A stretch of 64,000 nt of DNA from an uncultured Methylophilaceae bacterium. Its GTDB lineage: Bacteria; Pseudomonadota; Gammaproteobacteria; Burkholderiales; Methylophilaceae. A program made the translations under genes and the position numbers. Of this stretch, positions 21,319 through 33,606 are shown piece by piece. Where the stretch lies: NCBI GenBank assembly GCA_903899965.1, contig CAIULB010000009.1:35516-99515 (forward strand). The letters are read 5' to 3'. Numbering within the stretch: position 1 is the stretch's first letter; the number at the start of each line of letters is the position of its first letter. Below the pieces are notes generated by a model. It did not search any database. It was not told where the DNA came from and saw nothing but the letters and a program-made list of their open reading frames with translations.

Positions 21319-24300
21319 ATGTCCCAATCTATGCTAAGTTTGCGCGGTAGCGCGGCGCTATCGTCTTTTAGACTTCAAAAAATCCTTGCGAATTTAAGTC
21401 AATCTGCCCCTCAAATTAATGCGGTGCATGCTGATTTTTGGCATTTCGCTTGGAATGAAGGCGAGTTAACTGAAGCACAATTAGATACGCTGACAAAAAT
21501 TCTCACTTACGGTCCGCGTATGGCAGAAGAAGCGCCAGTAGGTGAGTTGTTTTTGGTGATTCCGCGTCCAGGTACGATTTCACCTTGGGCTTCACGTGCA
21601 ACTGATATTGCTAAGCATTGTGGCCTGGGAAGCATGCAACGTATTGAGCGTGGAATTGCTTATTACGTTAGTAAGAAAGATGGATCGGCTTTAACTGAGA
21701 CTGAAAAACAAGCAGTGAAAGCAGTCGTGCATGACCGCATGACGGAAGCTGTGTTTGGCAATATAGAAGATGCAGCTAAGCTTTATCACCAAGCAACACC
21801 AGCGCCTTTGTCTAGTGTAGATATTTTGGCTGGTGGCAAAGCTGCGCTTAATCAAGCGAACATGTACTTAGGCTTAGCGCTTTCACCAGATGAAGTGGAT
21901 TATCTCTTAGAAAACTTCACGCGTATTAATCGCAATCCAACCGACGTTGAGTTGATGATGTTTGCGCAGGCAAACTCAGAGCATTGTCGCCATAAGATTT
22001 TTAATGCGGATTGGGTTGTTGATGGCGTCGAGCAAGCGCAGTCATTGTTCGGCATGATTCGTAATACGCACAAATTAAATCCAGGTAGCACCGTCGTTGC
22101 CTATTCTGACAATGCCTCTATCGTTGCAGGCTCTGCCGGACAAAAAACTAAGCGCTTTTACCCGCAAGCAGGTGGCGCTTATGGTTTTATCGAAGAAGAA
22201 ATGCATTACTTGATGAAAGTAGAAACGCATAACCATCCAACCGCAATTTCTCCATTTGCTGGTGCTGCAACTGGTGCAGGCGGCGAGATTCGTGATGAGG
22301 GTGCAACCGGTAGCGGTTCTAAACCAAAGGCTGGTTTAACAGGCTTTTCGGTTTCTAATTTGAACATCCCTGGCTTTGAACAGCCTTGGGAAGGTTGTTA
22401 TGGCAAGCCTTCACGCACAGCTTCACCTTTGCAAATTATGATTGATGGCCCACTTGGCGGCGCGGCTTATAACAATGAATTTGGTCGGCCAAATATTGCG
22501 GGCTACTTCCGTACGTTTGAATTGGAAGCTGCGGGCGAAATGCGCGGCTATCACAAACCAATTATGTTAGCGGGTGGTGTGGGCAATATTTCTGCCAAAC
22601 ATTCTAAAAAGAACCCAATTCCAGCAGGTGCGTGCCTTATTCAATTAGGTGGTCCAGCGATGTTAATTGGCTTGGGTGGCGGTGCTGCTTCAAGTATGGA
22701 TACTGGTTCTAATGCGGAGAATTTGGACTTTGATTCAGTGCAACGTGGTAATCCAGAATTAGAGCGTCGGGCACAAGAAGTGATTGACCGTTGTTGGCAG
22801 TTAGGCGACAAGAACCCAATTTTAAGTATTCATGACGTTGGAGCTGGCGGTATCTCAAATGCATTCCCTGAACTGGTGAATGATGCGGGTGTGGGTGCTG
22901 TATTCCAATTGCGTGATGTGCATAACGAAGAGCCTGGTATGTCACCACGCGAGCTTTGGAGTAACGAAGCGCAAGAGCGTTATGTCATGGCAGTTTCAAA
23001 AGAAAACTTGGCTTTATTTGCTGAAATCTGTGAGCGCGAGCGCTGTCCTTTTGCGGTTGTGGGTGAAGCTACTGAAGAGCGACATTTAACGGTGGCTGAC
23101 AGCCATTTTGGCAACAAGCCTGTGGATATGGATTTATCTGTATTGCTTGGCAAACCGCCAAAAATGCTTCGGGATGTAAAGCATGCAACACGTACTTTGC
23201 CAGCATTTGACACAACAAAGATTGATTTAAAAGACGCGGCAAGTCGCGTGCTACGCCTTCCTGGTGTTGCTGATAAAACATTCCTCATTACCATTGGTGA
23301 TCGTTCTGTGACGGGTTTAATTGCTCGTGACCAAATGGTTGGTCCTTGGCAAGTGCCTGTGGCTGACGTGGCGGTAACGCTTGCGGGCTACCAAACTTAC
23401 CAAGGTGAAGCCTTTGCAATTGGTGAAAAAGCGCCTTTAGCCTTGATTGATGGTCCTGCGTCTGGCCGTATGGCGATTGGTGAATCAATCACCAATATTG
23501 CCGCAAGTTTAATTAACGATATTAGCGATTTGAAATTATCTGCAAACTGGATGGCGCCAGCTGGTCACCCTGGTGAAGATGCAGCGTTGTTTGATACGGT
23601 TAAAGCGGTTGGTATGGAGCTTTGTCCTGCGCTTGGTATTAGTATCCCTGTTGGTAAAGACTCCATGTCAATGAAGACGGTGTGGGATGATGCTGGCGAG
23701 AAAAAGGCCGTTACATCACCAATTTCATTGGTGGTCACAGCTTTTGCAGCTACCACAGATGCACGTAAAACACTCACTCCGCAATTAAGAACAGATCTTG
23801 GTGATACCAAGTTGATTTTGATTGATTTGGGCGCAGGTAAAAACCGCATGGGCGGTTCGGCTTTGGCGCAGGTCTATGGTGCGGTGGGTAACCAAGCACC
23901 AGATGTGGATGATGCGGCGCGTTTGAAAAATTTCTTTGGCGCAATTCAAAGTCTAAATTCTGACGGCAAATTACTTGCTTACCACGATCGTTCTGATGGT
24001 GGTCTATTCTCAACGGTTGTTGAAATGGCGTTTGCAGGTCATTGTGGTCTTGCTATCAATCTAGATGGCTTAGCTGGAGATGTGGCAAGTACGCTTTATA
24101 ACGAAGAGTTAGGCGCTGTGATTCAAGTGCGTGCTGCGGATGCGGATGCGATTGCAGCAAGCTTAAAACAAGCCTTGCCGAATTGTGCGCATGTGATAGG
24201 TGATGTTACAGCTGGCGAAGCTATTGCGATTAAGCAATCAGGCAAGGCTGTGTTTGAAGCATCCCGTGTTGACTTGCACCGTGCTTGGTCTGAAACTACT

Positions 24301-25221
24301 TACCAAATGCAAAAAATGCGTGATAACCCAGCTTGCGCGCAACAGGAATACGATCGTATCTTGGATAAAGCAGATGCTGGCTTGCATGCAAAATTAACAT
24401 TCGACCCAAGCGACAATATTTCTGCTTCATATATTGCGACTGGCGTACGTCCAAAAATGGCTATTTTGCGTGAGCAAGGTGTGAACGGCCAAACTGAAAT
24501 GGCAGCAGCTTTTGACCGCGCTGGTTTTGCCACTTACGACGTGCATATGAGTGACATTATTAGCGGCCGTGTCAGCTTGAAAGACTTCGCTGGATTCGTG
24601 GCTTGCGGTGGTTTTTCTTACGGTGACGTGTTGGGTGCGGGTGAGGGTTGGGCGAAGTCTATCTTATTTAACTCACGTGCTAGAGACGAGTTCTCAGCAT
24701 TCTTTGAGCGCCAAGATTCATTCTCGTTGGGCATCTGTAATGGTTGCCAAATGATGAGTAACTTACACAGCATTATTCCTGGCGCTGAGCAATGGCCGCA
24801 TTTTGTTCGTAACAAATCAGAACAGTTTGAAGCACGTTTTGCGATGGTGGAAGTGCAAGAGTCACCATCATTATTCTTTGCAGGCATGGCTGGAAGCCTC
24901 ATGCCGATTGCCGTTGCACATGGTGAAGGTTTTGCGGAATTTTCTTCAGAATCTGCTGTCAATAACGTTGTTGCAGATAAATTAGTGAGTATGAAGTTTG
25001 TAGATAATGCGGGCAATCCAACTGAAGTCTATCCATTTAATCCAAATGGATCGCCACAAGGGATTACTGGTTTAACTACTAAGGATGGGCGTTTTAGTAT
25101 TATGATGCCTCACCCAGAACGTGTTTTCCGTACTGTGCAAAACTCTTGGCATCCAGATGCTTGGGGCGAAGATGGCGCTTGGATACGTATGTTTAGAAAT
25201 GCAAGAAAGTTTATCAATTAA
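21319..25221 (+). CDS. purL: Phosphoribosylformylglycinamidine synthase (single-chain)
   Basis: 1300 aa; [42 protein letters not shown] and C-terminal class I amidotransferase [15 protein letters not shown]. Confidence 0.98.
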
Positions 25222-25249: not shown

Positions 25250-25732
25250 ATGAAGATGATTAAAGCGTTATTGTTAGCAGCAATCTTACTTTTACCTGTT
25301 GCAGCATTCGCTATGGAAGGCGAGCAACAAGTTGAATATACACAAGCATTGCGTGATGGCAATGTGAAAATGGTTAAAAAATATTTAGATTCTGGTACCG
25401 ATGTAAACGAGAAGTTTTTTGCATGGTCAGCATTACAAATCGCTGCGAATCAAAACCAATTGGCCGTTGTGAAATTTTTAGTTGAACGTGGTGCTGAGGT
25501 GAATTACGTTCACCCAATGACTAAGATGTCTGCAGGTCAAATGGCTGCTTACGATGGTTACACAGAGTTGGTTAAATACCTTGGCTCAAAAGGCGCTGAT
25601 TGGAACTTGAAGCTTAAAGGTGATGTATCAATTCTTCGCGTAGTGCGTGATACAGGCAATACAAAGATGGTTGACCTTTTGATTTCAATGGGCGCTAAAG
25701 ATGACGGCTGTAAAGAAGAGAAATGTTTCTAA
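25250..25732 (+). CDS. Secreted ankyrin-repeat protein
   Basis: 160 aa; signal peptide MKMIKALLLAAILLLPVAAFA; ankyrin repeats (SALQIAANQNQLAVVKFLVERGAEVNYV; AGQMAAYDGYTELVKYLGSKGADWN); C-terminal CKEEKCF. Confidence 0.85.
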   Translation: MKMIKALLLAAILLLPVAAFAMEGEQQVEYTQALRDGNVKMVKKYLDSGTDVNEKFFAWSALQIAANQNQLAVVKFLVERGAEVNYVHPMTKMSAGQMAAYDGYTELVKYLGSKGADWNLKLKGDVSILRVVRDTGNTKMVDLLISMGAKDDGCKEEKCF

Positions 25733-25773
25733 TAAAGCCTTACAAAAGTATCTAGATGCTTTAATATGAATCC

Positions 25774-26154
25774 ATGAAGATTCAATTAAAGATTAGTCAA
25801 AAAGCCCACAATTCCCTATTGGTGTTTGCGGGCTTTTTTTTGCTTAGCGTAAATGCCCATGCTGATGAAAGTGAAGTCCCTAGCCCTCATATTCAAACGT
25901 TGGCTGCATCGTGTGCAGCTTGTCATGGCAGTCAAGGTAATAGCGTAGGTGGCACCTCTGTGCTTGCGGGTTTGGATGCCTCGCACTTTGTATTGCAGAT
26001 GACGGCCTTTAGAAATGGCAGTCGCAGTTCAACAGTTATGCATAGACACGCTAAAGGCTTAACGGTTGAAGAGATTAACGATTTAGCTGTTTATTTTGCA
26101 CAGCAAAAGCGCGTGACAGCAATTACTCCGCCAAATAAAAGATTGGCTGAATAG
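25774..26154 (+). CDS. Small periplasmic c-type cytochrome
   Basis: 126 aa; signal peptide ending SVNAHA; haem motif CAACHG; distal MTAFRNGSRSSTVMHRHAKGLTVEEINDLAVYFAQQK. Confidence 0.88.
   Translation: MKIQLKISQKAHNSLLVFAGFFLLSVNAHADESEVPSPHIQTLAASCAACHGSQGNSVGGTSVLAGLDASHFVLQMTAFRNGSRSSTVMHRHAKGLTVEEINDLAVYFAQQKRVTAITPPNKRLAE
25799..25841 (+). terminator. Terminator-like hairpin with T8 tract inside the cytochrome signal-peptide coding sequence
   Basis: AAAAAGCCCaCAA-ttccctattggtgt-TTGcGGGCTTTTTTTT. Confidence 0.55.
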
Positions 26155-26155
26155 C

Positions 26156-27418
26156 ATGGCGATAGATAGACGTGACTTTCTAAAAATCGCCGCATCAACG
26201 GCATTGGTTTCATTGCCCATGCTTTCTAAAGCTGCTACTCAAGCCAAAGGGCGAATTGTAGTGGTTGGAGGTGGCTATGCTGGCGCCACAGCCGCTAAGT
26301 ACTTACGTGATTGGAGCAATGGCGGCTTGGATGTTATCGTGGTTGAGCCACGCAGCCAATTCGTTTCATGCCCTTTGAGTAATTTAGTGCTGGGGGGTAA
26401 TAAAAATATTAACGACCTCACTTTTGGGTATGACCTGCTAAAAAGCAATCATGGTATTCAATGGGTTGCAGATGAAGTCGTTAGTATTGATGCCGCATCA
26501 CGTGTAGTTAAAATGAAGCAGGGTGAGCTCGCTTACGATAGGCTGGTGATTGCTCCTGGTATTGATTTTATGTACGAGCAACTGCCGATGTTGCAAAGCC
26601 CTCAATCTCAAGAAGTGGTGCCGCACGCTTGGAAAGCGGGCAAGCAAACGGTGAACTTGCGCAAACAGCTAGAAAGCATGAAAGACGGCGGGGTGTTTGT
26701 CATGAGCATTCCTAAAGCACCTTACCGTTGCCCGCCTGGGCCTTATGAGCGTGTTTGCCAAGTCGCTTTTTACTTAAAAAATCACAAGCCTAACTCTAAA
26801 GTTATTGTGCTCGATGCCAACGCAGAAATCATTTCTAAAAAAGGCCTATTCACCAAAGTGTGGGCTGAGATGTATGCCGGTATGATTGATTACCGTCCTA
26901 ATAGCAGTGTAGTAGATGTGGATGTCGCTACTAAAACGGTCAAAACAGAATTTGAGTCTGTGCAAGCCAATGTGCTAAATGTGATTCCGCCACAACGCGC
27001 TGGCAAAATCGCTCAAATTGTTGGCGCGGCAAATGTGGATAAGCGTTGGTGCGAAGTGGATTTTCTCACTTACGAATCTAAAATTATTTCTAACGTTCAT
27101 ATTATTGGTGACTCTGTTTCTGCTGCATTGCCAAAATCAGCGCACATGGCAACTTCTCAAGCCCGTGTTTGTGCCAATGCCATTGTTGCAATCATGGGCC
27201 AGCAAATGCCAGACGCATCTCCCGTATTTGCCAATACTTGTTATAGCTTTGTTTCTGACAAAATGGCGATGCACGTTGCCAATGTCTATCGCTATGACGC
27301 TACTAAGAAAATCATGGTGTCTGCCGAAGGTGGTGGGGTGTCAGATAAACCATCCGAGCTTGAAGGTAACTACGCACAGGCTTGGGCCAAAAATATCTGG
27401 TCAGATGTGCTGACTTAA
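26156..27418 (+). CDS. Flavocytochrome c sulfide dehydrogenase-like FAD subunit (FccB/SoxF family), Tat-exported
   Basis: Tat signal DRRDFLKIAASTALVSLP; FAD motif RIVVVGGGYAGATAAKYL; Cys-containing SQFVSCPLSNLVLGG, PYRCPPGPYERVCQVAFYL and NTCYSFVSDKMAMHVANVYR (FCSD flavin-binding C-terminal domain). Confidence 0.87.
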   Translation: MAIDRRDFLKIAASTALVSLPMLSKAATQAKGRIVVVGGGYAGATAAKYLRDWSNGGLDVIVVEPRSQFVSCPLSNLVLGGNKNINDLTFGYDLLKSNHGIQWVADEVVSIDAASRVVKMKQGELAYDRLVIAPGIDFMYEQLPMLQSPQSQEVVPHAWKAGKQTVNLRKQLESMKDGGVFVMSIPKAPYRCPPGPYERVCQVAFYLKNHKPNSKVIVLDANAEIISKKGLFTKVWAEMYAGMIDYRPNSSVVDVDVATKTVKTEFESVQANVLNVIPPQRAGKIAQIVGAANVDKRWCEVDFLTYESKIISNVHIIGDSVSAALPKSAHMATSQARVCANAIVAIMGQQMPDASPVFANTCYSFVSDKMAMHVANVYRYDATKKIMVSAEGGGVSDKPSELEGNYAQAWAKNIWSDVLT

Positions 27419-27454
27419 AGCGTTATATATTGGAAAGTGTTGTTGGAAATCATC

Positions 27455-28033
27455 ATGTTGAACTTCAAAAAAGCGCTATCTTCAGTAATCTTTTTTATAT
27501 TGAGTGGTGTAGTTTCAGCACATGAAATCGCGCCAACTAGCATTGCCGTTTATATTCAGGCCCAAGAGTACAATCACCAAATTATGCTGAGAAACTACTC
27601 TCAGGATTATTGGTATCGCCAAGGCCCAATGTTAGAGACTGCGGCGCATGATGTATTGGGTGCGGATTTTACTGGTGTGGATATGTGTGACGCACAGCCA
27701 GCGGATGCCAAAGTAGTGGTTTGGCTGCGTCCACGCATGTTTTACAACCCGCAAATGCAAACCTTTTATGGCAAAGTCATCGCCGTGACTTATACCGCCG
27801 ATGGCAAGCCATTAGCTAATTATGTGGGCGAAGCGACTAAGCGCGCTTTCTTTGATGTAAAAACCGAGCTTACTTTAAGTGATGTCTATCACGCGTCCAT
27901 GCAAGCGGTTTCAGCCAAAATGAAAGCAGATGGAAAGTTCCAAGCCGCGCTTAATGCCCCATCATTCTCATCGCCATGTGCAACCGTTAGCGTGTCGCCT
28001 GAGCCAAAAATTCAATTCATGTCATTTCAATAG
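27455..28033 (+). CDS. Secreted protein of unknown function
   Basis: Signal peptide MLNFKKALSSVIFFILSGVVSA; two Cys in the mature part; family not recognised; likely ATG start 27455 rather than GTG 27437. Confidence 0.7.
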   Translation: MLNFKKALSSVIFFILSGVVSAHEIAPTSIAVYIQAQEYNHQIMLRNYSQDYWYRQGPMLETAAHDVLGADFTGVDMCDAQPADAKVVVWLRPRMFYNPQMQTFYGKVIAVTYTADGKPLANYVGEATKRAFFDVKTELTLSDVYHASMQAVSAKMKADGKFQAALNAPSFSSPCATVSVSPEPKIQFMSFQ

Positions 28034-28041
28034 GGAGTTTT

Positions 28042-28901
28042 ATGCGTATTTCTAAATTATTATTGGCCTTGGTAGCGCTTATTTCTATCACTGCCCAAGC
28101 CCACGAAACCAAAAAAATTACAGGCCTAAAAATGCCTGAATCAGCCATTGCCGCAAAAGATGGCCGTGTGTTTGTTTCTGAAATCGGCGAATTTGGTAAA
28201 GACGGTGACGGCCAAATTACCGTGATTGATAAAAACGGCGAAGCTAAAGTATTTGCACAAGGCTTGTATGACCCGAAAGGCCTAGCGATTGTAGATAAAG
28301 ATTTGTATGTGGCTGACAACCACCGTGTGATTAAAATCACGCCCGATGGCAAAACTTCAGTGTTTGCCGCTGCAGAAGCTTTCCCTGATGCCCCACAATT
28401 TTTGAATGATTTAGAGTCCGATGCGGCAGGTAATATTTATGTCAGCGATAGTGGCGACTTAAAAGGCGTGGGTGGTGCAGTTTATAAAATCAACCCACAA
28501 GGTAAAGTGACGACCATTATCAATGGCAAACAAGATGCACGCGTATTAGCACCTAATGGCTTGCTCATGGGCAAAACACCAAACTGCATCATGGTGGTCG
28601 ATTTTGTGTCTGGCGTGTTATACCGCTTGGATATGAAGAAAAATACTTTGATTGAAGTCGCCACAAAGGCTTTGGCGGTGGCGATGGCATCGTAAAAGGT
28701 AAGAAAGGCCAGTTCTTTGTTAGCGATTGGAAAAACGGCAAAGTATTTAGCGTGAAGTTAGAAAAAGGCGCTGTAGCGAACGGCGAGCTAATTAAAGAAG
28801 GCTTTGCCGCAGCGGCAGATATTGCGCCTAGCTTAGATGGTAAGTTCTTGTTGGTGCCCGACATGAAGGCTGGTGAGTTGGTGTATTTGCCGGTACATTA
28901 A
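28042..28901 (+). pseudogene. SMP-30/gluconolactonase-like secreted beta-propeller, interrupted by a 1-nt frameshift
   Basis: ORF 28042-28695 ends ...IEVATKALAVAMAS*. The -1 frame continues GFGGGDGIVKGKKGQFFVSDWKNGKVFSVKLEKGAVANGELIKEGFAAAADIAPSLDGKFLLVPDMKAGELVYLPVH* to 28901. Confidence 0.85.
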
Positions 28902-28963: not shown

Positions 28964-29533
28964 TTACTTTGTAGGTGTAACAACCGTTACTGACTCAATC
29001 AAAATCGTTTGCATCGGCACATCACCGCCATCGGTTGGCATTTTCGCAATGCGTTCAACCACGTCCATGCCTTTAACTACTTTACCGAACACGGTATAGC
29101 CCCAGCCACGTTCTGATTTTTCGGTGTGGTTTAAGAATGCGTTATTCGCTACATTAATAAAGAACTGTGATGAAGCTGAATGGGGGTCGTTGGTGCGTGC
29201 CATGGCAATGGTGCCGATGGTGTTTGCTAAACCATTATCTGCTTCGTTTTTAATTGGTGCGCGGGTGGTTTTTTCATTTAAGTTTTTATCCATGCCACCG
29301 CCTTGAATCATAAAGCCTGAAATCACGCGATGAAAAATCGTGCCTGTGTAAAAGCTGTCGTTGGCATATTTTACAAAGTTAGCTACGGTGTTTGGCGCTT
29401 TTTCTTGATTGAGTTCAACCACAATCACGCCTTTGTTGGTTTTGATTTCAACAGTAGGCTGAGCAAATGCGCTGATGCTTGTAGCGAGTAATGAAACTAA
29501 AGCGCATGAAAGTAGTAGTTTTTTCAATGACAT
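28964..29533 (-). CDS. ppiA: Periplasmic cyclophilin-type peptidyl-prolyl cis-trans isomerase
   Basis: Signal peptide MSLKKLLLSCALVSLLATSISAFA; FHRVISGFMIQGGGM and ASSQFFINVANNAFLNH. Confidence 0.95.
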   Translation of the reverse strand: MSLKKLLLSCALVSLLATSISAFAQPTVEIKTNKGVIVVELNQEKAPNTVANFVKYANDSFYTGTIFHRVISGFMIQGGGMDKNLNEKTTRAPIKNEADNGLANTIGTIAMARTNDPHSASSQFFINVANNAFLNHTEKSERGWGYTVFGKVVKGMDVVERIAKMPTDGGDVPMQTILIESVTVVTPTK

Positions 29534-29577: not shown

Positions 29578-30426
29578 TTAAATCGTAGAAAATAAATTAG
29601 CAATGCCGTCCAGCCCAACATGGTTAAGCGCATAGCTAGCTTGAGCTTGTACGATAGGCTTGGCATGGTAAGCAATGCCCGCTACCGCCACGCGCATCAT
29701 GGTTAAATCATTGGCGCCATCACCAATAGCAATCACTTGGTCTGGTGTTAAGCCTAATTCATCTCGTTTTTGTACTAGATAATCTGCTTTAGCTTGCCCA
29801 TCAACAATCTCACCAAGCACTTTGCCTGTAAGCTTGCCATCAATAATTTCAAGTGTATTGGATTCGGCATAGTCCAAGCCTAGCTTGGCTTTGACGTGGT
29901 TCGCAAAAAACTCGAAGCCGCCAGAAACGAGCAGGGTTTTAACGCCATTCGCTTTACAGGCATCTATCCAAACTTGGGCGCCGGGGTTGAGTTTAAGTCT
30001 TTCATCAATTACGCGTTGAAGCGCTGACTCATCTAAGCCATTGAGCAAGGCAACGCGGCGCGTGAGGCTTTCTTTAAACTCAATCTCGCCACGCATCGCG
30101 CTTTCGGTAATCTCAGCCACTTGCGGCTTGATGTTCATCATGTCAGCAATTTCATCAATGCATTCGATATTGATGAGCGTTGAGTCCATATCCATCACCG
30201 CGAGTTTAATATTTTTAAGTGTTTGCGTTTCTGGTACATAGGCGCAATCAATTTTCTCAGGGGCACAAAATGCTTTTACTGTCTCAGAAGCGGTTTCTTG
30301 ATGCGGCAAGTAATAAGCGTGCTCAGCAATCTGCATGAACTGTGCGCCTTGCTTGGCGTTGCTAAGTTGATGGATGTGCATCAAGTGGGGCAATTGTATG
30401 GATGAACCTTGAACAACTAAGCGCAT
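29578..30426 (-). CDS. serB: Phosphoserine phosphatase
   Basis: HAD motif KLAVMDMDSTLINIECIDEIADM; LLVSGGFEFFANHV and GDGANDLTMM. Confidence 0.96.
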   Translation of the reverse strand: MRLVVQGSSIQLPHLMHIHQLSNAKQGAQFMQIAEHAYYLPHQETASETVKAFCAPEKIDCAYVPETQTLKNIKLAVMDMDSTLINIECIDEIADMMNIKPQVAEITESAMRGEIEFKESLTRRVALLNGLDESALQRVIDERLKLNPGAQVWIDACKANGVKTLLVSGGFEFFANHVKAKLGLDYAESNTLEIIDGKLTGKVLGEIVDGQAKADYLVQKRDELGLTPDQVIAIGDGANDLTMMRVAVAGIAYHAKPIVQAQASYALNHVGLDGIANLFSTI

Positions 30427-31756: not shown

Positions 31757-32641
31757 ATGAGTATATTAGTTAATGAAAATACCAAAGTGTTATGCCAAGG
31801 TTTTACTGGCAAACAAGGCACATTCCATTCAGAACAAGCGTTGGCTTACGGCACCAAAATGGTCGGTGGTGTAACGCCTGGCAAGGGTGGTCAAAGTCAC
31901 TTGGGTTTGCCAGTCTTTAATACCATGCGTGATGCAGTGCGTGAGACAGGCGCCAACGCTTCTGTCATTTATGTGCCGCCACCATTTGCCGCTGACTCTA
32001 TTTTAGAGGCGTGCGATGCGGGCATTGATTTGATTGTGTGTATTACAGAAGGCATTCCAGTGTTGGATATGCTGAACGTAAAAGCAGCACTTAAAGCGAA
32101 TAATGTGAAGTTGGTTGGTCCAAATTGCCCTGGTGTGATTACGCCAAACGAATGCAAAATCGGCATTATGCCGGGGAGCATTCATTTGCGCGGCAAGATA
32201 GGCATTGTGTCACGCTCTGGTACGTTGACTTACGAAGCCGTTAACCAAACAACCGCATTAAGCTTAGGTCAATCGACTTGTGTTGGTATCGGTGGTGACC
32301 CAATTCGCGGTTTGAATTTTATTGATTGTTTGGAAATGTTCCAAGCTGACCCTGAAACTGAAGCCATTATTATGGTGGGCGAAATCGGCGGTGCCGATGA
32401 AGAGGCTGCGGCTGATTACATTAAGCATCATGTGACCAAGCCTGTGGCTGGTTATATAGCAGGTCAAACAGCGCCGAAAGGTAAACGCATGGGTCATGCT
32501 GGCGCGATTATTTCAGGCGGAAGCGGTAAAGCGGAAGATAAGATTCTTGCTTTAGAAAAAGCCGGCGTAATTGTTGCAAGCTCCCCAGCTGGTTTGGGTG
32601 AAGCAGTGATGGCGGCCATTAAAGCGAAGCAAGCTAATTGA
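31757..32641 (+). CDS. sucD: Succinate-CoA ligase alpha subunit
   Basis: [46 protein letters not shown] and [13 protein letters not shown]. Confidence 0.95.
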
Positions 32642-33606
32642 TGAAACCTCACCCACTGAAAAAGCTAGCGCGCTACTTCATTTTTATTGCCTTGAGCTTA
32701 GTCTTTATTGATTTTGCTATGGCTGAAGAGGATGTGCCTTATCTCTTAACTGTTTCAGCGAAAGGCGATATTGCAACAGTGCGTGCATTGCTAGAGAGCG
32801 GCACTAATCCTAATGTGCGCGATATCGACAACGTAACTGCCTTGATGTATGCCGCACGCAAAGACAAATCAGAAATCGTTAAAGCGCTGTTAGAAAGGGG
32901 TGCAGACCCGAATGCTAAAGATAATAGTGGCTGGACGGCATTGATGCTGGCCGCACGCAAAAACTATCTTAAAACAGCAGAGGCTTTGCTGAATAAAGGC
33001 GCAGACCCAGCTCTGCGTGATGTGTCTGGTTGGAGCGCGATGGGCATGGCCGCCACATCTGGTTATTCTGAGATGGTGGGCTTGCTAATTGAGCACGGCA
33101 TGGACGTCAATACCAAGAGCGATGATGGTAAAAGCGTATTGATGTATGCCGCTAAAAGCGGTGATGTGCCAACTGTTAAAGTCTTGTTGGCGCATGGCGC
33201 ATTGATTGCAGACCGAGATCGTTTGAAGGTGAATGCTTTGATGTATGGTGCACGTGAAGGGAATGTAGCGGCTGTTGAGGCCTTGATTGATGCTGGTGCT
33301 AAGGTTGACGATTACGACCAAAATAAATGGACGGCGCTGAGTTGGGCTGTGAGAAAGAAAAAAGTTGATGTTGTCCAAACGCTGATTGCAAAAGGTGCAG
33401 ATGTAAATCATAAAGATAGCGAAGGGACGCCACCATTACAAAATGCGGTATTAAACGGCGATGCCCTTATGGTGGCTTTGCTGATTAAAAGCGGTGCCAA
33501 TGTAAAAGCTAAAGACCAATATGGATTGAGCGCTTTGGTTTACGCCCTAAAAGGCAAAAGCCCTGAAATCGTTAAGATGATTAAAGATGCAGGTGGCAAC
33601 TATTAG
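32641..33606 (+). CDS. Secreted ankyrin-repeat protein
   Basis: N-terminal hydrophobic signal (YFIFIALSLVFIDFAMA) followed by about eight ankyrin repeats; ATG overlaps the sucD stop (TGATG). Confidence 0.9.
   Translation: MKPHPLKKLARYFIFIALSLVFIDFAMAEEDVPYLLTVSAKGDIATVRALLESGTNPNVRDIDNVTALMYAARKDKSEIVKALLERGADPNAKDNSGWTALMLAARKNYLKTAEALLNKGADPALRDVSGWSAMGMAATSGYSEMVGLLIEHGMDVNTKSDDGKSVLMYAAKSGDVPTVKVLLAHGALIADRDRLKVNALMYGAREGNVAAVEALIDAGAKVDDYDQNKWTALSWAVRKKKVDVVQTLIAKGADVNHKDSEGTPPLQNAVLNGDALMVALLIKSGANVKAKDQYGLSALVYALKGKSPEIVKMIKDAGGNY

Follow-up and report, generated by a model that had tools for sequence, protein, structure and literature searches.

Predicted sulfide dehydrogenase genes and probably separate exported neighbours share a conserved position behind purL in Methylophilaceae

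The window, a stretch of 64,000 nucleotides from an uncultured Methylophilaceae bacterium, contains five consecutive genes for exported proteins on the plus strand. The host is a lake methylotroph represented by a draft genome of 38 contigs that is about 93% complete. The first gene, ank (25250..25732), encodes a periplasmic ankyrin-repeat protein of 160 aa with a Sec-type signal (Ank_2, 58 bits), and follows purL (21319..25221, plus strand), which is syntenic across relatives and lies directly upstream of ank in nearly all of them. Next come fccA (25774..26154), for a cytochrome c of 126 aa with a single CAACHG motif that was assigned as a monoheme subunit by phmmer against the PDB, and fccB (26156..27418), for a predicted flavocytochrome c sulfide dehydrogenase (FCSD) flavoprotein of 420 aa with a twin-arginine (Tat) signal. 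The fourth gene (27455..28033) encodes an exported protein of 192 aa without a family, referred to below as the unclassified protein; translation probably starts from the ATG at 27455 and not from the GTG at 27437 given in the gene list. The fifth (28042..28901) is a disrupted gene for an SMP-30/gluconolactonase-like (SGL) propeller. For the five products in this order, Pfam returned ankyrin repeats, class I cytochrome c, FCSD_central with FCSD-flav_bind, no domain, and SGL/NHL. The neighbourhood ends with two syntenic genes on the minus strand, encoding a peptidylprolyl isomerase (28964-29533; Pro_isomerase, 171 bits) and a serB homologue (29578-30426). The original prediction of five co-directional genes with export signals agrees with the gene calls and with inspection of the N-termini, which revealed an export-type signal on each protein. 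The twin-arginine signal that it assigned to the flavoprotein is visible as a DRRDFLK motif, with a weak Pfam TAT_signal match (E = 0.018). The gaps between fccB, the unclassified gene and SGL measure 9-36 bp in the window, a tight packing that makes their co-transcription probable.

The FCSD_central (PF21706) and FCSD-flav_bind (PF09242) domains of FccB scored 158 bits (cut-off 27) and 81.5 bits (cut-off 26) in Pfam, and a PDB search matched the protein to 1fcd, 3vrd and 5n1t over its whole mature length (E about 1e-97). Counted along the alignments, C72, C192 and C362 correspond to Cys42, Cys161 and Cys337 of the Allochromatium enzyme (1fcd), and all three are invariant across 21 FccB homologues down to 38% identity. 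An extra cysteine, C201, is found beside the active-site segment in most Methylophilaceae sequences. In flavocytochrome c, the residues aligned with C72, C192 and C362 serve covalent FAD attachment and sulfide chemistry, and the acceptor is a mono- or diheme subunit (PMC12010331). The second-best PDB match of FccA was 5n1t_B, the monoheme subunit in the FCC complex of Thioalkalivibrio (phmmer E = 1.4e-14), which identifies the CAACHG cytochrome, originally suggested as a possible electron acceptor of the flavoprotein, as the heme subunit FccA. Matches to the heme subunits of 3vrd and 1fcd, 1fcd_C among them, followed at E values of about 3e-12, and one CXXCH motif was present per FccA in 58/58 loci. 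Since FccB retains each of the three cysteines that are diagnostic in the enzymes of known structure, FccAB is very likely a monoheme FCSD, an activity predicted from sequence. In an FccB tree of 100 rows, the Methylophilaceae locus copies grouped together (support 92) and were joined only by Glaciimonas and by second copies from Methylophilaceae, a pattern consistent with vertical descent of the gene at this locus. It is extremely improbable that the flavoprotein is an SQR-like enzyme or a thiol oxidase instead. Pyr_redox_2 is common to FccB and SQR-like enzymes, and the NCBIfam type III SQR model matches FccB weakly; however, that match (86.8 bits) lies far below the cut-off of 525, SQR structures were reached only at E values of 1e-14 or weaker, and FccB combines FCSD-specific domains above cut-off with the covalent-FAD cysteine and a heme subunit. 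Domains and residues led us to reject an SQR or other thiol oxidase identity, and the family, the three cysteines and the tree uphold the earlier description of an FccB-like flavoprotein with typical Cys segments.

FccB would fold in the cytoplasm and then be exported by Tat, with FAD thioether-linked to C72 and a C192-C362 redox disulfide as the presumed site of attack on sulfide. Electrons would pass from FAD to the FccA heme and on to a cytochrome c/oxidase chain, and sulfane sulfur would leave FccAB, probably for SoxYZ encoded elsewhere. We propose this acceptor because the genome itself encodes SoxY (131 bits; curated cut-off 125) and an adjoining SoxZ (122 bits; curated cut-off 76), both outside the block, and because second FccAB copies in five genomes (G010, G043, G053, G062 and G078) lie about 2-3 kb from SoxY or SoxYZ-like matches. 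Near a quinoprotein-relay hydrolase, the genome of the window also encodes a fused SoxYZ-like carrier; a search for SoxB in this roughly 93% complete assembly gave no match. Physiologically, the enzyme may detoxify sulfide or supply additional energy, for instance when methylated sulfur compounds are broken down. That methylotrophs have FccAB and oxidise sulfide in connection with dimethylsulfide is already on record (PMC6548844, PMC4611497, PMC8399692): FccB is up during dimethylsulfide growth of Methylophaga thiooxydans (PMC6548844), and fccA has been reported from Methylophilus (PMC8399692). The neighbourhood is not discussed in the relevant passages of PMC6548844 and PMC8399692, and a literature search in which subscription journals were thinly covered returned nothing specific on it.

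In the named genomes the gene order is purL, ank, fccA, fccB, a GSDH propeller gene, the unclassified gene and SGL, often followed by DUF455 and an opposite-strand serB. This order was seen in Methylovorus, Methylobacillus, Methylotenera, Methylophilus, Methylopumilus and others, some of them without the GSDH gene. A tally was made from the best positions of five genes (ank, fccB, GSDH, unclassified and SGL) among the matches listed for a sample of 150 genomes of the family. By this tally, ank and fccB lie at most 8 kb apart in 96 of the 99 genomes having both, as do the unclassified and GSDH genes in 83/83 genomes having both. The locus holds the complete set of five in 66 genomes and lacks only GSDH in 18 others, among which is the genus of the window. 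The proximity of ank and fccB is conserved far beyond chance. The gene order, proposed as a first check, is thus kept across Methylophilaceae; the five genes of the window are not the full set, the GSDH propeller of the relatives being invisible from the window. A search of the host genome (about 93% complete) found no GSDH family member.

Conserved order was not accompanied by joint gain and loss. The order purL-ank-GSDH-unclassified-SGL is intact with fccAB missing in four lineages (loci L112, L113, L114 and L119; genomes G004, G008, G023 and G083). Streamlined pelagic genomes (1.1-1.4 Mb) without FccB keep ank, with or without propellers: (i) purL-ank-SGL-DUF455-serB at L121; (ii) purL-ank-GSDH-SGL at L160 and L163; (iii) purL-ank alone at L162. 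Sampled loci outside Methylophilaceae carry fccA-fccB without the unclassified gene or SGL, and ank is likewise missing except at L090 (Hyphomicrobiales), where an ankyrin gene lies upstream of fccAB. Moreover, GSDH-SGL fusion chains of about 650 aa, GSDH part first, occur as paralogues elsewhere in several relatives, a link between the two propellers that does not extend to FccAB. The linkage pattern likewise pairs FccA with FccB and connects the ankyrin with the position of purL. Since relatives without FccAB keep the remaining genes, the block probably comprises two or three adjacent systems instead of a single machine. On these phyletic patterns we reject a single five-gene module, and the loss of fccAB alone at the four loci, together with the streamlined genomes, speaks against the suggestion that all five genes form one sulfur/thiol redox system. 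Independent occurrence in relatives, which the original prediction had named as telling against itself, was found for the ankyrin, the unclassified protein and SGL, and not for FccA and FccB.

The C-terminus of the ankyrin reads GC-X4-CF in the window, and a C-terminal GC-X3/4-C was present in 57/57 loci, with these the sole two cysteines in 49 of the 57. The unclassified protein matched no Pfam or NCBIfam family; its best Pfam hint was Lipoprotein_16 (E = 0.0047, 4/27 members), and a sample of 300 genomes from the order gave only weak matches outside Methylophilaceae. It has six invariant residues, two of them cysteines (C78 and C175). Its AlphaFold model (pLDDT 81) matched the CC_3750 lipoprotein, LptE, PelC and PqiC in Foldseek (E 3e-4 to 2e-2), with probabilities near 1, TM-scores mostly of 0.4-0.58 and identities of about 10-14%; the modelled fold therefore resembles LptE/PelC/PqiC, a resemblance and not a membership. 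One integrated periplasmic sulfur/thiol system, in which the CX3-4C arm of the ankyrin takes or shields the sulfane sulfur of FccAB and the unclassified protein and SGL are accessory, would accommodate the invariant cysteine pairs of both proteins and the order conserved, among the matches listed, in most genomes with fccB. It is nevertheless improbable: the ankyrin, the unclassified protein and SGL are kept in genomes that lack fccAB, the FccAB of other bacteria mostly lacks all three, and SoxYZ is already there as a carrier. A SoxY-like carrier role of the ankyrin for FccAB, considered on account of its C-terminal cysteines, was set aside as a long shot because the ankyrin is present where FccAB is absent.

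A terminator-like hairpin followed by a T-tract (25803..25842, plus strand) lies within the signal-peptide codons of fccA, and its counterparts in eight congeners, the window included, are placed about 70-110 bp past ank. The standard promoter and terminator scan missed it, its loop exceeding the limit of the scan, and a dedicated scan found it. Across the eight sequences 96.6% of cells pair, two pairs have changes on both sides, and outer stem pairs covary among A-U, G-C and C-G; the covariation score was reached by 0/500 shuffles and exceeded all slid controls. The copy in the window has one A-C mismatch. Coming from eight related sequences, this comparison is suggestive of a hairpin conserved as structure and is not proof. 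A different hairpin occupies the ank-fccA gap in nine Methylophilus loci, and a scan of the ank-fccA region found none in most Methylotenera-type loci. The position of these hairpins, between ank and fccA or within fccA, is an indication that, in two genera, ank and fccAB are transcribed as separate units; that translation of fccA overrides the in-gene terminator is speculation.

The propeller frame, taken at first to be open to 28901, stops at 28695 after 217 aa (28042-28695), and its tail lies in another frame. Alignment with four close relatives located a 2-bp duplication, CA to CACA, at about 28662-28665; the gene is intact in these relatives, so that the frame was either broken recently or is misassembled. 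The SGL domain (PF08450, cut-off 26.3) scored 38.8 bits in the window and 56.1 bits in locus L038, where GSDH (PF07995) scored 90.7 bits, also above its cut-off. Residues E33, N122, N172 and D214 (numbering of L003) are invariant and presumably resemble the SMP-30 metal site. The closest solved relative of SGL is the uncharacterised protein Cj1041c, for which the single mention found in the literature gives no function, and NCBIfam offered ScyE-like and PVC-type names below cut-off. This SGL branch occurred in 15 of 300 genomes of the order, nine of the 15 being Methylophilaceae. If SGL is a lactonase, a GSDH-lactone-SGL pair is chemically sensible. The locus might accordingly serve mainly periplasmic sugar or aldehyde oxidation, a GSDH-like enzyme making a lactone that SGL opens, with electrons entering the same cytochrome pool and FccAB secondary. 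The closeness of the two propellers and their fusion in paralogues, both scores above cut-off in L038 and the invariant E, N, N and D speak for such a pathway, which we regard as possible but rather unlikely: no substrate is known, Cj1041c is uncharacterised, the NCBIfam names of SGL point elsewhere below cut-off, and GSDH is gone from the genome of the window, in which SGL was kept until recently. This pathway is compatible with the identity of FccAB and competes over the main purpose of the locus.

We consider it likely that FccAB is a normal monoheme FCSD and that the other genes are inherited neighbours, namely a purL-linked ankyrin and a propeller set of GSDH, the unclassified protein and SGL. 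The loss of GSDH in the lineage of the window would have left a remnant that resembles one five-gene module. Counting against this explanation are the persistence of the order ank-fccA-fccB-(GSDH)-unclassified-SGL across most Methylophilaceae, an unusual pattern for unrelated genes, the tight packing of fccB, the unclassified gene and SGL, and the ankyrin at L090; general gene loss could also explain the absence of FccAB from streamlined genomes. Very improbable is an undescribed periplasmic redox system in which GSDH-SGL, a partner of LptE/PelC fold and a thiol-active ankyrin are fed by FccAB, with hairpin-gated fccAB expression in the genus of the window. FccAB would then supply electrons or sulfane sulfur, and the terminator, concealed among the codons for the FccA signal peptide, would have to be covered by ribosomes. 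FccAB sulfide oxidation would be an inherited trait of most Methylophilaceae, with its genes kept in one position after purL and absent through loss from the streamlined pelagic lineages; this has consequences for the sulfur economy of methylotrophs that are abundant in fresh and marine waters. The locus also cautions that five exported genes in neat succession can be what gene loss has left of two or three unrelated sets, and it draws attention to an ankyrin, an unclassified protein and an SGL propeller that are conserved family-wide yet uncharacterised.

FccAB shares with the enzymes of 1fcd, 3vrd and 5n1t the flavoprotein family, the covalent-FAD cysteine, the redox cysteine pair and a heme subunit gene directly upstream of fccB, and with that of Thioalkalivibrio paradoxus (5n1t) the single heme. 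It differs from them in its methylotroph host, its non-sulfur neighbour genes and, in most Methylophilaceae, the extra C201. The FccAB of Methylophaga thiooxydans and Methylophilus is of the same enzyme type, but Methylophaga loci lack the ank, unclassified and SGL neighbours. The SGL propeller is similar to SMP-30/gluconolactonase in a domain above cut-off and in conserved propeller residues, whereas the branch found at this locus is rare in the order outside Methylophilaceae. The GSDH propeller of the relatives is likewise similar, by a domain above cut-off, to soluble PQQ aldose dehydrogenases (2ism, 3a9g). The unclassified protein is similar in its modelled fold to the outer-membrane lipoproteins LptE, PelC and PqiC, from which it is set apart by modest TM-scores and by an N-terminus in which no lipobox cysteine was seen. 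FccAB itself is an already known enzyme type, and it is the composite neighbourhood that is modestly interesting.

The reading frame of the SGL (SMP-30/gluconolactonase-like) propeller is broken in the window by a 2-bp CA duplication at 28662-28665, whereas it is intact in four relatives. In many relatives, a gene for a ferritin-like DUF455 protein lies 3' of the SGL propeller (L038:10018-10839), but it is absent from this position in the window. The SGL and GSDH (PQQ-type dehydrogenase-like) propellers also occur as a single exported chain in relatives (L124:2802-4763, 653 aa; L125:3103-5031, 642 aa), and an RND-type transporter gene lies immediately 3' of the L124 fusion.

A terminator-like hairpin with compensatory changes is located within the fccA signal-peptide codons (window 25803-25842); Methylophilus has another, distinct hairpin, sited in the ank-fccA gap. 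A second exported ankyrin protein (322 aa) is encoded directly 3' of sucCD (window 32638-33606), a position kept in relatives such as L121, L131, and L160.

At L155:4606-5374 and L154:4620-5417, the window's own genome encodes soxY paired with soxZ and, apart from them, a fused SoxYZ-like carrier whose gene lies close to a quinoprotein-relay metallohydrolase; SoxB was not found in this genome. In streamlined lineages, a diverged homologue of the unknown exported protein sits outside the usual locus (L122:5516-6160; L123:5336-5944), adjoined in L122 by a thioredoxin/peroxidase-like gene.
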